This document shows positions 22,474-43,690 of a stretch of 64,000 nucleotides of DNA, one piece after another. The notes beneath the pieces were generated by a model that worked only from the letters and a program-made list of their open reading frames with translations, made no database searches and was not told the origin of the DNA. The stretch spans positions 2,528,597 through 2,592,596 of the forward strand of contig NZ_CP089468.1 in the NCBI RefSeq assembly GCF_021233435.1, in the 5' to 3' direction. The stretch is from Halobacterium noricense. Its GTDB lineage: Archaea > Halobacteriota > Halobacteria > Halobacteriales > Halobacteriaceae. The position numbers were made by a program, and so were the translations under genes. The stretch's first letter is position 1, and the number at the start of each line of letters is the position of its first letter.

Positions 22474-23518
22474 CGACTACCCCGACTACACGCACCGAGA
22501 CATCGACAACGCCGCCGGCCGCGAGTTCCGCGAGCTGCTCGCGGACGACGACCCCTACGTGTTCGCGCCCGGCCTCTACCACGCCCTCGACGCGCGGCTC
22601 GCCGAACGCGCCGGCCACGACGCCGTCTACATGAGCGGCTACTCGACGGTCCTCGGGCAGTTCGGCTTCCCGGACCTCGAAATGGTGTCGATGACCGAGA
22701 TGGTCGAGAACGCCAAGCGCATCGTCGACGCCACCAGCCTCCCGGTCGTCGCTGACGCCGACACCGGGTACGGCGGCGTCCACAACGTCCGGCGCGCCGT
22801 CCGCGAGTACGAGAAGGCCGGCGTCGCCGCGATTCACATCGAGGACCAGACGACGCCCAAGCGCTGTGGCCACATCGCCGGGAAGGAAATCGTCTCCCGG
22901 GAGAAGGCCCGCGCGCGCTTCGAAGCCGCCGTCGACGCCACGCAGTCCGAGGACACCGTCATCATCGCGCGCACCGACGCGTACGGCTCCGCGAACGGTG
23001 ACTGGGAGGAACACCTCGAACGCGGCCGCATCTACGCGGACGCCGGCGTCGACCTCGTCTGGCCGGAGATGCCCGACCCGTCCCGCGAGGACGCCGTCGA
23101 GTACGCCGAAACCATCCACGAGACCCACCCGGACCTCGATCTGGCGTTCAACTACTCGTCGTCGTTCGCGTGGAGCGAGGAGGACGACCCGCTAACCTTC
23201 GAGGAGCTCGGCGACCTCGGCTACGAGTACATCTTCATCACCCTCTACGGCCTCCACTCGGGCGCGCACGCCGTCTACGAGGACATGGAGAACATCGCGA
23301 ACAACGCCGAGCAGGCGCAGTTCGACCTCGAAGACCGCTACCTCGGCCACGAGACCGAGAGCCACCACGACCTCTCGCTGGTCAGCCGCTACCAGGACAT
23401 CGAGACCCAGTTCGACCCCGAGGCTCGTCGCCGCATCGAGGAGTCCGAGGGGTACAGCGAGGACGAGAGCGACCCGATTACGGCCGACGACGAGGCCGCG
23501 GCGACGCAGGATGACTGA
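22466..23518 (+). CDS. aceA: Isocitrate lyase
   Basis: A 350-residue enzyme of the isocitrate/methylisocitrate lyase family, splitting isocitrate into glyoxylate and succinate. The catalytic loop KRCGH holds C134; the metal/substrate site [11 protein letters not shown] is at 94-104 and HIEDQ near 124. The length is the short archaeal form. The stop overlaps the aceB start, so the two glyoxylate-shunt enzymes are made together. Confidence 0.93.
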
Positions 23519-24821
23519 CCCGACCGCGCGCCACTACGAGCGCGAGTTCGTGCGGACGTTCTTCACGTCCCCGACGGCCGTGGAGGGCGAGGACGACTCC
23601 GCGAAACTGCTGCGCAGCGCGGCGCAACTGCGCGGCATCGAGGCACCGGACGTCTGGGTGCCGGACAACGAGGACGCCACCGCGCCCTCGATGCGCACGG
23701 AGGGCGCACGGAACATCGTCGACGTGGTGAGCGAGCACGGGAGCGAGTTCCCCGGCGAAATCCACCCGCGCGTGGTCTGGCACCGCGAGCGCCCGTCCAC
23801 CCGCTACCGCGGGTTCCAGCAGATGCTCACCATCGCCGACCCTGACGGCGGCGCTGTCGAGCACATCGACGGCTTCGTCGTCCCGGAGGTCGGCGACATC
23901 GACGACTGGAAGAAGGCCGACGAGGCCATCACCGTCGTCGAACACGAGCACGGCCTCGACGAGGGCAGCCTGTCGATGTCGGTCATCGTCGAGAGCGGCG
24001 AAGCCGAGCTCGCGATGGGCGACCTCCGCGAGGAGATGGGCAACCCCTCGAACAACCTCGAACGCATGTTCCTGCTCGTCGACGGCGAAGTCGACTACAC
24101 CAAGGACATGCGCGCGATGACCCCCACCGGGGAGCTGCCACCGTGGCCCGAACTCCGCCACAACACCTCCCGGGGCGCTAGCGCCGCCGGCCTCGTCGCC
24201 GTCGACGGTCCCTACGACGACATCCGCGACGTCGACGGCTACCGCCAGCGCATGCAGGACAACCGCGCGAAGGGGATGACCGGCATCTGGTCGCTCACCC
24301 CCGAGCAGGTCGAAGTCGCCAACACCGCGCCACTCCCGCCCGAGACGGGGAGTTGGCTGCTCGACGTCGACGGCCGCGAGGTCGAACTCGACGCCGAGGA
24401 CGACCGCCAAGTCTACGACGGCGACGACCTCTCCCTATCGGAGTCGGCCGGCGGCTACGTGCTCGGTGTCGGCGGCGACGAGCGCGAACTCTCGGAGGAG
24501 GAGCTCCGCGATGAACTGCTCGACCGGACGTCATACGTCCCCAGCATGAACGACATCGTCGACTCCATGGAGGAGTTCGAAGCCGCGAAGGAAGCGGGCA
24601 AGGGCGCCATCGCGATGACCCAGGCCGCCACCCTCGACATCGACGGCGTCACTGTGGACCTGAGCAAGGACCGGATGTGGGACGAGGCCACTTACCAAGC
24701 CGCTCAGACGCCGATTACCCTCTTCCAGGACGTCTACCAGCACCGCCCCGACCAGCACGACGACCTCCAAGCCAAGTACGGCGAAGACGTCGTCGAACGC
24801 GCCACGAACGTCGGGAACTGA
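23511..24821 (+). CDS. aceB: Malate synthase, haloarchaeal type
   Basis: A 436-residue protein related to the CitE/HpcH aldolase fold, not to bacterial AceB or Glc[35 protein letters not shown] and [20 protein letters not shown]. This short malate synthase class is known from Haloferax beside aceA. It joins glyoxylate and acetyl-CoA to malate. The start overlaps aceA by 8 nt. The context is strong support. Confidence 0.88.
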
Positions 24822-25139
24822 CGACGCGCGGCCGCACGCGGACGTGCTCAGCCCGCTCGCGGCCGTTCCGTCGGCATCCAGAATCTCGTAGCTCGGGAGG
24901 TTCTCGCCTCCCACTTCTCGCGACCCACAGTGCTCGCTGTGCTCACGCCTCGCTACGCTCACCGTTCGCGTGGTTCGAGGGCGCTTCGCGCCCTCGCAGC
25001 TCACGGCTCACTGTGTTCGCCGTTCGTCGTTCCGTGCTCTCCCGTCTGGTCGCGCACGCGCTCAGCGCTCGCTTATTCCGAGGAGGTTTCACCTCCTCGC
25101 AACCGTCGGCCTTTTTTCTGCGTCGCACCGAGTAGCGGT
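24822..25139. repeat. Gene-free 318-bp hairpin array between aceB and trm1
   Basis: No credible ORF. Several perfect short hairpins lie in series: GGGAGG-ttctcg-CCTCCC (24895-24912), CGAGGGCGC-ttc-GCGCCCTCG (24976-24996) and CGAGGAGGT-ttc-ACCTCCTCG (25079-25099), plus weaker repeats of CTCGCTGTGCTCAC type between them. A T-run (CCTTTTTTCTG, about 25110-25120) precedes trm1. It is related in style, though not in core sequence, to the 3'-end elements elsewhere. Possible roles are termination after aceB or a structured leader for trm1. Confidence 0.7.
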
Positions 25140-26258
25140 ATGCTCGTCGAGGAAGGCGGCGTGACCGTCGAAGTACCCGGGGAGGCCGGCGGCGGCGAGG
25201 GTGTCGGCGAAGGCGTGTTCTTCAACCCCACGCAGGAACTCAACCGGGACCTGACGGTCGCGGCGCTGTCGGCGTACCGCGAGCGCGAGCCGCGCGCGGG
25301 GACGTACCTCGACGCGATGGCCGCCAGCGGCATCCGCGGCGTGCGCGCGGCCAACAACGACTGGAAAACGACGCTCGCGGACCTCGACCCCGATTCGGTC
25401 GAACTCTCGCGGGCGAACCTCGCGCGCAACGACCTCGACGGCGAGGTCGTCCAGCGCAACGTCAACAGCCTCCTCCACGAGGACGGCCAGTTCTTCGACG
25501 TCGTCGACCTCGACCCGTTCGGGACGCCGATTCCGTTCGCGGACGCGGCGTTCGCGAACGCCCGCAACCTCGTCTGCGTCACCGCGACCGACACCGCGCC
25601 GCTGTGTGGTGCGCACTTCGAATCCGGCGTCCGGAAGTACTCCGCAGTCCCCCGGAACACTGAGTACCACGCCGAGATGGGGCTGCGCGTGCTGCTGTCC
25701 GCGCTCGCCCGCACCGCCGCGCGCTACGACGTCGGCGTCACGCCCATCTTCAGCCACGTCAGCGACCACTACGTCCGTACGTACCTCGACCTCTCACACA
25801 CCGCGACCGAGGCCAACGAAGCCATCGACGAACTCGGCTACGTCTACCACTGCCAGGAATGCCTCCACCGCGAGTACGAGTACGGCCTGATTGCGGACTC
25901 GCCGGAGACGTGTCCGCGCTGCGGCGGCCGGCAGGTGCTGCCTGCAGGCCCGCTGTGGCTCGGCCCCGCCCACGACAGAGAGTTCGTCGCGGGGGTCCGC
26001 GAGCACGTCACCGACTACATGGGTACCGCCAAGCGCGCGCGCAAACTACTCGATACCATCGCGGGCGAGCTCCACGAACCCACGCACTTCGACCAACACC
26101 GCCTCTACAAGCAGTGGTCCGAGCCCGCCGTGGGCATGGACGAGTTCCTCGACGAACTCCGCGAGGCGGGGCTGGCGGCCTCGCGCACGCAGTACGGCGG
26201 CACGACGTTCAAGACCGACGGCACGCTCGCCGACGTCGAGGCCGCGGTCCGCGAGTAG
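25140..26258 (+). CDS. trm1: tRNA (guanine26-N2)-dimethyltransferase
   Basis: A 372-residue Trm1. The SAM site is [16 protein letters not shown] near residues 55-70, the catalytic-type motif DLDPFGTP near 123, and two CxxC-like pairs in [10 protein letters not shown] and TCPRCGGRQ make a zinc site in the C-terminal domain. It dimethylates G26 of tRNAs. ATG at 25140 ([13 protein letters not shown]) fits the family N-terminus; the upstream open frame is repeat sequence. Confidence 0.95.
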
Positions 26259-33148: not shown

Positions 33149-33172
33149 CCGTCGTTTACGAAACCATCGCGC

Positions 33173-33198
33173 GCCCAGCGACAGAACCGTCGCTGGGC
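33173..33198 (-). terminator. Hairpin just downstream of tRNA-Ser
   Basis: GCCCAGCGAC and GTCGCTGGGC make a perfect 10-bp stem with a 6-nt loop, 20 nt past the tRNA 3' end (minus strand). It has no T-run, so it may be a processing or stability structure more than a classical archaeal terminator. Confidence 0.4.
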
Positions 33199-33217
33199 GG
33201 CGCGAGTACGGTGAAAG

Positions 33218-33299
33218 CGCCGGGACAGGGATTTGAACCCTGAACCCCGTAAGGGGACACGCTTTCCAGGCGTGCGCTTTGCCATTCGGCCATCCCGGC
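33218..33299 (-). tRNA. tRNA-Ser (anticodon GGA)
   Basis: An 82-nt class II tRNA on the minus strand. Acceptor GCCGGGA pairs with TCCCGGC, discriminator G. The anticodon arm CACGC-CTGGAAA-GCGTG gives GGA, reading UCC/UCU. The long variable arm (CCCC-ttac-GGGG) and T arm CAGGG-TTCAAAT-CCCTG are complete. No encoded CCA and no intron seen. Confidence 0.95.
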
Positions 33300-42410: not shown

Positions 42411-42596
42411 CCCACTTTTTCCAGCGCTCGGCGCGCTACGCGCGCCGTCGCTTGCAAAAACTTGGGGAAAAAGCACTCCTCCCTCCAGCGCGCCTTCGGC
42501 GCTTAGTCGGTCGTCGGCCTCGCGGCTTCGCCGCGAGTGAACCGCTCGCGCCTACGGCGCTCGCGGATGCTTTTGCTTCCGCCACGCTCAGGTGGC
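42411..42596. repeat. 3'-end dispersed repeat element, copy F
   Basis: Starts directly after the aspartoacylase stop: CCCACTTTTTCCAGCGCTCG, then the hairpin GGCGCGC-tac-GCGCGCC, GCAAAAACTTGGGGAAAAAG, GCACTCCTCC, GGCGCGC-like and CGCGGC-ttc-GCCGCG stems. It is near-identical in parts to copy G in reverse orientation. Probable terminator before the co-directional PLP-enzyme gene. Confidence 0.75.
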
Positions 42597-42616: not shown

Positions 42617-43690
42617 ATGCTCGAATGCCGTTCCTGCGGTCGAACCTACGAGTCCGGGCCGGACGAGCCGTGGCGTTGCGAGTGCGGGCACGCGCTGGAC
42701 TTCGCCGAGCAGCCGCTGCCGGACAGCGACGAGCCGGACGTCGACCCTCGCGAGGGACTGTGGGCGTTCGACGAGTTCCTCCCAATCGGGGCAGAGGTGA
42801 CACTCGGCGAAGGATGGACGCCACTGGCCGATGCGCCGGAGTGGAACGCGCAGTTCAAACTGGACTACGTGTTCCCGTCCGGGAGCTACAAGGACCGCGG
42901 TGCGGCGCTGACGCTGTCGCGGGCGGCGGAGTTGGGCGTCGAACGAATCGTGGAGGATTCCTCGGGGAACGCGGGCGCAGCCATCGCGCAGTACGCCGCG
43001 CGCGCCGGCATCGACGCCGACATCTACGTGCCCGCGGACGCCAAGCAGTCGAAACTCGACGCCATCGAGGCCGTGGGCGCGACGGCGGTCCGAATCGAGG
43101 GGAGCCGGCAGGACGTGACCGACGCCTGCATTCGGGAGGCAGTCGGCGGGGACGCGTGGTACGCGAGCCACGCGTGGAATCCGGCGTTCTACGCGGGGAC
43201 GTCGGCGTTCGCGCTCGAACTCGCGGCACAGCGCGACTGGACGGTCCCGGACGCGGTGGTGCTCCCGCTCGGCCACGGCACGCTGTTCCTCGGCGCGTAC
43301 CGTGGATTCTCCGCGCTCGAAGCGGCGGGCTGGACGGAGTCGGTGCCGCGGCTGCTCGGCGTGCAGGCGACGGGCGTCGCGCCAATCGTCGAAGAGCTCC
43401 ACGGACCAGCAGAAGCCGGCACGAACGACGTCGCGGACGGCATCCAGATTCGGGAGCCCGCGAGGAAGGGGCAGATTCTGGACGCCATCGACGCGACCGA
43501 CGGCGACGCCATCGCATGCGACGCCGAAGCGACCGAGGAAGCACTGGATGCGCTCCACGAGCGCGGGTTCTACGTGGAGCCGACGAGCGCGGTCGGAATC
43601 GCCGGTCTAGAGGCGTATCGCGAGCGCGGCGTCCTCGATACGGACGACGACGTGGTCGTCGCGCTGACGGGCAGCGGACTGAAGCAGTAG
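42617..43690 (+). CDS. PLP-dependent threonine-synthase-like enzyme with N-terminal zinc ribbon
   Basis: A 357-residue fold type II PLP enzyme. Residues 1-25 hold a zinc ribbon (LECRSCGRTYESG, WRCECGHAL). PLP lysine is in SGSYKDRGAAL near residue 94, EDSSGNAGAAIAQYAARAG is the substrate loop and GHGTLFLGAYRG the phosphate region. It resembles threonine synthase but is short, so it may act on another substrate. It follows repeat element F. Confidence 0.82.
   Translation: MLECRSCGRTYESGPDEPWRCECGHALDFAEQPLPDSDEPDVDPREGLWAFDEFLPIGAEVTLGEGWTPLADAPEWNAQFKLDYVFPSGSYKDRGAALTLSRAAELGVERIVEDSSGNAGAAIAQYAARAGIDADIYVPADAKQSKLDAIEAVGATAVRIEGSRQDVTDACIREAVGGDAWYASHAWNPAFYAGTSAFALELAAQRDWTVPDAVVLPLGHGTLFLGAYRGFSALEAAGWTESVPRLLGVQATGVAPIVEELHGPAEAGTNDVADGIQIREPARKGQILDAIDATDGDAIACDAEATEEALDALHERGFYVEPTSAVGIAGLEAYRERGVLDTDDDVVVALTGSGLKQ

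Follow-up and report, generated by a model that had tools for sequence, protein, structure and literature searches.

A class-wide haloarchaeal repeat of two-hairpin units forms an array beside the trm1 promoter of Halobacterium noricense

Bacterial REP, BIME and REPIN elements are short intergenic palindromes that form arrays and show compensating changes in their stems, as passages of one account set out (PMC3733652). The haloarchaeal repeats described here resemble these systems, which come with a RAYT (TnpA_REP), as far as that account presents them, in being intergenic palindromes with compensated stems, arranged in arrays and present at tens to hundreds of copies per genome. Unlike REP, however, they show no invariant GTAG or CGTC beside the stem and no dependence on RAYT (PF01797 is absent from 6 of 13 Halobacterium genomes, all six with arrays); they are archaeal, combine two different hairpins in each 61-nt unit and are anchored at promoter edges. 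The only HuH enzymes that a survey, in its passages on the domain, records from Archaea belong to the IS200-type subclass (PMC6006769). The family is a palindromic dispersed repeat, like REP/BIME in style, with neither the REP tag nor the tie to RAYT.

The STAXI motif (Weinberg 2010) is likewise a tandem structured motif for which the choice between RNA and single-stranded DNA was left undecided; it differs, in excerpts of its description, by its pseudoknots and by its gene contexts, namely genes for DNA-binding proteins (PMC2864571). Hairpin-cluster intrinsic terminators also comprise several adjacent intergenic hairpins, but in the portions of PMC8355165 that define them they are bacterial and follow stop codons, whereas the haloarchaeal arrays lie mainly at the upstream edge of promoters and have internal motifs that are conserved. 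Within Halobacterium itself, MITEs and ISH elements are also dispersed repeats, the MITEs without an enzyme of their own; the MITEs differ in being ~400 bp long with target duplications, and the pertinent sections of PMC10264941 describe no hairpin array in them. A literature search with most subscription journals outside its scope found no description of the present family, which is apparently undescribed.

The spacer upstream of trm1

The window, a 64,000-nt stretch of H. noricense DNA, lies on contig G000:C1 (2.89 Mb) of the window's own genome, G000. Its spacer at 24822–25139 holds no gene and separates two plus-strand genes, whose coordinates (23511–24821 and 25140–26258) a simple codon-usage caller reproduced exactly. 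The initial annotation had pointed out serial perfect hairpins here, as either a structured RNA or a composite of element fragments; the gene-free spacer and perfect stems of 9, 9 and 6 bp are as it described, a further stem has 5 bp, and the spacer is not a one-off small RNA. Nine hairpins in the 64 kb have a stem of at least 9 bp and a loop of 3–8, and two of them sit in this spacer. The spacer folds better than its dinucleotide shuffles on both strands (z −3.2 on plus, −3.7 on minus; 0 of 100 shuffles matched it). The features, from the gene backwards, are as follows.

25140–26258, plus: trm1, tRNA (guanine-N2)-dimethyltransferase
25100–25139, plus: trm1 core promoter spacer, kept in species with and without the array
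25112–25117, plus: T6, a TATA-like box at about −28 to −23
25079–25099, minus: promoter-proximal tall hairpin, perfect 9-bp stem with a triloop that reads GAA on this strand and TTC on plus
25059–25078, minus: linker GAATAAGCGA and half-deleted short hairpin GCGCTGAGCG, read from the sequence
24997–25058, minus: unit 1 (covariance model R1, 63.9 bits, E 5.6e-14 in the window)
25058–25033, minus: unit 1 tall hairpin, with a GA/GA internal loop and a single G.A stem mismatch
25032–25024, minus: unit 1 linker
25023–25003, minus: unit 1 short hairpin, intact, also picked up by rule
25002–24997, minus: unit 1 terminal GAGCTG
24939–24996, minus: unit 2, abutting unit 1 (R1, 41.0 bits, E 2.4e-8)
24996–24976, minus: unit 2 tall hairpin, perfect 9-bp stem, without the GA/GA loop
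24975–24966, minus: unit 2 linker
24965–24945, minus: unit 2 short hairpin, degenerate
24944–24939, minus: unit 2 terminal GAGCAC
24926–24941, strand not assigned: short stem, 5 bp
24895–24912, strand not assigned: short stem, 6 bp, loop TTCTCG
23511–24821, plus: upstream gene of the HpcH/HpaI aldolase/citrate-lyase family, beside an isocitrate-lyase-family gene

We take the upstream gene to be probably a malate synthase (aceB-like). The R1 matches of the window's spacer are two directly adjacent minus-strand units (24997–25058 and 24939–24996), and at 24939–25099 a dispersed repeat family, which occurs class-wide in haloarchaea, forms a short minus-strand array; the composite of element fragments was the right suggestion, and a stand-alone structured RNA of the trm1 locus is not supported. 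The strand that folds is most likely minus, opposite to the one first read, and its loop there is GAA. The two TTC loops, said to be flanked by C and G, are so flanked at 24976–24996, but at 25079–25099 the flanks are T and A. UUCG tetraloops follow the cUUCGg rule; the base after CTTCG at 24976–24996 is C and the fold predicted there is a triloop, so that the sequence of both loops rules out the UUCG-type tetraloops that had been proposed.

Junctions like that at 25059–25078, a linker followed by a half-deleted short hairpin, recur at L002, L004, L005, L006 and in G094. The short stems within 24895–24941, which are common to G235 and partly to G067, are probably a decayed remnant of the array. 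Elsewhere in the window, a perfect 8-bp hairpin with a TTC loop lies at 42519–42537, in the spacer upstream of the gene at 42617, and the R1 match adjoining it reaches only E 0.037; a perfect 11-bp hairpin at 33172–33199 adjoins the tRNA-Ser gene at 33217–33299.

Copies, spread and conserved pairing

Read on the strand opposite to that first annotated, each hairpin follows a simple grammar of stem, GA, two bases, triloop, two bases, GA and complementary stem. Tall hairpins (7-bp stems of the form CGTGNNC, or longer CGAG-type stems) alternate with short ones of 5-bp stems such as ACGGC or GCGGG; a unit comprises a tall hairpin, a linker of ~9 nt that closes with GCGA, then a short hairpin and finally GAGCAG, 61 nt in total, with consensus flanks GAGCAG and TTANNGCGA. 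Units are spaced at exactly 61 nt in G067 and G035, and in G067 the stems differ between units.

A blastn query with 24880–25115 found 21 places in the window's own genome, its own included, and the 7-bp-stem pattern CGTGNNCGANCNNNGNGAGNNCACG has 39 matches there against none for the reversed pattern. R1 has at least 112 matches in this genome at E ≤ 0.01 (150 of 7059 candidates scored). One third of the chromosome, G000:C1 758201–1846288, holds just one of the 39 pattern matches, and the two smaller contigs hold none. The units also form tandem arrays at L043/L046 (G000:C1 ~2168910–2169473) and L051 (~2360844–2361028), where 77 bp is repeated 7.5 times at 100% match and 80 bp 3.1 times at 99%, respectively; these are probably recent expansions.

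Twelve other Halobacterium genomes have 1 to 101 R1 matches each. The lowest count is that of G018 (2.4 Mb), with a single weak match (E 0.0028) and two Y1 transposase places; it seems either to have lost the family or never to have had it. Across the haloarchaeal class, 322 of 391 genomes are positive at E ≤ 1e-4, with 13 candidates scored per genome. The phylum sample gave matches in 44 of 294 genomes, all 44 in the window's own order, and none in the genomes of that sample listed as 'same phylum', with none outside the class. The exact two-hairpin pattern, which is a weak test, had no match in viral contigs; the single-hairpin pattern, among the matches listed, hit mostly bacteria in a manner that looks like chance. 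At the gathering score, Rfam 15 matched only tRNAs in the window and ten family loci; the trm1 spacer itself gave two sub-threshold matches, at E 0.21 and 4.5.

With those bacterial matches to the single-hairpin pattern as the chance control, the free stem positions of the 7-bp-stem pattern are paired in 25 of 28 distinct copies from the own genome vs 8 of 114 bacterial matches. Covariation in relatives, which the initial annotation had named as a check, bears this out, pairing being strongly conserved and two-sided changes lying far above shuffles in both sets of units, 18 and 84. Alignment A1 consists of 18 units selected by hand because their short hairpin could be read; 98.3% of its cells are paired, and two-sided changes number 49 against 16.0 ± 3.4 in shuffles. 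The 84 units from outside the genus come from 40 loci taken from the best-scoring places of the 391-genome survey, all 40 being used; 97.1% of their cells are paired, two-sided changes number 254 against 83.9 ± 9.5 in shuffles, and such changes occur at 13 of the 16 pairs. The units of alignments A2 and A3 were retrieved with R1 and aligned to it, which favours pairing. To judge by the shuffles, slid controls and bacterial matches, model fitting is probably not the whole of the effect. Compensatory changes exceed the controls, and the repeat is a conserved structured nucleic acid.

Conservation lies in how one strand folds, with variable Watson–Crick stems, GA/GA internal loops and triloops of the C(GNA)G type; GNA triloops occur in 87 of 127 tall hairpins, and in 66 of the 84 outside the genus. 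In all 69 tall hairpins folded, the GA strand is the stabler RNA (mean −14.3 vs −12.1 kcal/mol). Non-Watson–Crick cells are G.U 75 times vs A.C 40 times when the sets are pooled (p 0.0014), with p 0.17 in the non-genus set alone.

Promoter edges and hairpin turnover

From 63 Halobacterium loci, 136 R1 matches were merged into 70 arrays with the strands kept separate. Next to the tall-hairpin end, the closest gene points away from the array in 56 of the 70, and in 41 that end lies 35–52 nt upstream of an away-reading start codon, most commonly at 40; at the other end the gene reads away in 38 but lies within 30–55 nt in only two (41/70 vs 2/70, Fisher p 9e-14, with orthologous promoter loci counted that are not independent). 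Over 39 distinct array-to-start spacers, A+T content peaks at 0.95 at −27, with lesser peaks at −34/−33 and −11/−10. The peaks fit a leaderless haloarchaeal promoter, and the array therefore starts just outside the BRE. This layout, with BRE, TATA and −10 elements and leaderless mRNAs, is outlined in parts of PMC4983044. Position is conserved too in Halobacterium: the tall end adjoins the core promoter at its outer edge, and the folded strand runs away from the gene. The trm1 array follows this rule, its first hairpin (25079–25099) ending 40 nt upstream of the ATG; at L007 and L016 the two promoters of a divergent gene pair carry an array apiece, both facing inwards. The genes downstream of arrays are ordinary ones and include those for SRP54, L21e, L37ae, shikimate kinase, a MoeA-like and a Grx4-like protein and trm1, the names resting on 11 of 18 proteins with any match, some of them under the curated cut-off.

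At the distal end of the array (n = 65), the gene reads away in 38 cases and towards the array in 27. Among window promoters with a gap of at least 60 nt, 28 have divergent and 16 tandem neighbours. An insulator that favours tandem neighbours was rejected, as the arrays show no such preference.

Outside the genus, the data suggest a weak form of the promoter rule: 5 of 49 arrays lie 41–46 nt from a start codon vs none at the other end (p 0.056), and 8 of 49 lie no more than 20 nt after a stop codon vs 3 at the other end (p 0.20). At L281 a repeat unit begins 2 nt past the 3′ end of a tRNA-Gly gene. Units at L271, L277, L279 and L282 are preceded by apparent partial copies of the 3′ end of a nearby tRNA-Leu or tRNA-Gly.

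The aceB-like gene is directly upstream of trm1 in 12 of 13 Halobacterium genomes, and eight species have an array before trm1, R1 being positive in all eight loci submitted. Seven of them have the first tall hairpin 40 nt upstream of the ATG, and one has it 46 nt upstream; this hairpin shows six stem sequences among the eight species, all of them paired, with one G.T. G246, G127 and G023 have a trm1 spacer of 66–73 nt with the same promoter box and without an array, and G376 has a longer spacer with no clear array. When filled and empty sites were compared by eye, the promoter-side edge was sharp at GGTTG; the other edge could not be aligned, and no target-site duplication was seen.

Arrays recur before the same promoters in several species, and hairpin turnover is uneven between orthologous pairs. 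At a promoter other than trm1 (L031/L217, G000 vs G235), the promoter is identical over 40 nt and the linker unchanged, yet 8 of the 25 tall-hairpin positions have changed, each change in the stem being compensated; at L008/L229 the promoter and first unit are wholly unchanged. Replacement of the whole hairpin would explain L031/L217 better than single mutations, a mechanism that we infer from the sequences. Comparison of hairpin and promoter rates is mixed: in 34 of 40 cross-species pairs the hairpin shows less likeness than the promoter, in 5 it shows more and in 1 the two are equal, the pairs not being independent (many are trm1) and one of them, L010/L217, probably not joining orthologues; in nine chosen pairs compared without gaps the rates do not differ (35/225 vs 59/367), or 31/200 vs 29/325 once L230/L231, which is inflated by an indel, is set aside. 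Watson–Crick pairing holds in both species at 11 of the 12 opposite stem positions that changed in these nine pairs.

Candidate roles of the arrays

Our best guess, put forward tentatively, is that the folded GA strand acts as an outward-transcribed RNA which limits stray transcription, the array insulating the promoter or gene; a selfish repeat is nearly as likely. At promoters the GA strand has the sense of outward-directed transcripts, and after stop codons and tRNAs that of read-through RNA. Wrong-way RNA from a promoter, or read-through from a gene end, would start in or enter the array and fold into consecutive hairpins, which may stop RNA polymerase or shorten the life of the RNA, and in this way the array would shield a promoter or gene against stray transcription in the outward direction. 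Stems with new sequences would arise by swapping a whole hairpin or copying it from another unit, so that pairing survives. This model is proposed because the GA strand is favoured, because archaeal promoters are able to fire both ways, as parts of PMC6640164 report, and because a hairpin can end transcription: in a reporter assay in Haloferax volcanii, a single one terminated 59% of transcripts, according to the relevant passage of PMC7237163. Against it, passages of PMC6640164 place the antisense start in Pyrococcus ~50 nt upstream of the sense start; a start near −50 would fall inside the first tall hairpin, which would therefore not be whole in such an RNA. Also counting against it are the lack of any bias towards tandem neighbours, the ones that antisense RNA would harm, the weakness of the promoter rule outside the genus, the G.U excess that is not significant in the non-genus set, and the uneven hairpin turnover.

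The arrays may instead be a selfish, non-autonomous REP- or MITE-like repeat with no host function, possibly inserting and expanding at the edge of DNA bound by basal factors and at the 3′ ends of genes and tRNAs; the fold would then serve the repeat's own copying. We consider this reading nearly as plausible. Copy numbers from 1 to 112 among 13 Halobacterium genomes, the trm1 array present in eight species and missing from G246, G127 and G023, the exact or near-exact tandem expansions (77 bp × 7.5, 80 bp × 3.1) and the unit 2 nt past tRNA-Gly at L281 all speak for such a repeat, whereas random insertion is unlike the recurrence of arrays at the same promoters in several species, and the trm1 site shows no target-site duplication by eye. 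The distribution of the Y1 transposase (PF01797) is also mismatched to that of the arrays. It is present in 7 of the 13 genomes, among them G018 with its one weak match, and the six without it carry 28–70 R1 matches each; we rejected it as the mobilising enzyme, as its occurrence among the 13 does not follow that of the arrays.

To return to outward transcription, a wider proposal, that the family is a class-wide directional boundary element which starts exactly at the outer edge of the TFB/TBP footprint and makes near-symmetric promoters one-way by terminating outward transcription, whole-hairpin exchange renewing its stems, strikes us as rather unlikely.

An element acting as DNA is improbable. 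Its cruciforms or single-strand hairpins would absorb negative supercoiling behind RNA polymerase, or it would be a site for a nucleoid protein that marks the promoter boundary. In models, negative supercoils gather upstream of promoters, which is directly where the arrays lie, and C(GNA)G triloops form very stable DNA hairpins; a cruciform, however, requires both strands and the fold is strand-asymmetric, and a protein that binds duplex would have no need of variable paired stems. It is more doubtful still that the plus-strand hairpins followed by T6 are a terminator of the aceB-like gene: T6 (25112–25117) does come after the hairpin at 25079–25099, but it is kept at the TATA position where the hairpin is absent (G246, G127 and G023), arrays also lie between divergent genes, and tall hairpins fold less stably on the plus strand. 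That the array is a discrete small RNA acting in trans, or a riboswitch-like trm1 leader, is scarcely credible, although the better-than-shuffled fold would speak for it: the array lies upstream of the core promoter and hence outside a leaderless trm1 mRNA, units of this kind also precede unrelated genes, and at Rfam gathering scores the window and ten family loci yield only tRNAs.

If our preferred reading of a barrier to outward transcription is right, haloarchaea have a REP-like archaeal system that is set by fold and promoter position and not by sequence, in a family found in most of the haloarchaea sampled and without an Rfam family. What makes this repeat remarkable is its conservation in fold only, its class-wide spread and its position at promoter edges. 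The repeat would make it testable how archaea with near-symmetric TATA/TBP promoters curb divergent transcription. Natural experiments come from close species in which a whole hairpin has been swapped beside an unchanged promoter, and from some without an array at the same gene.
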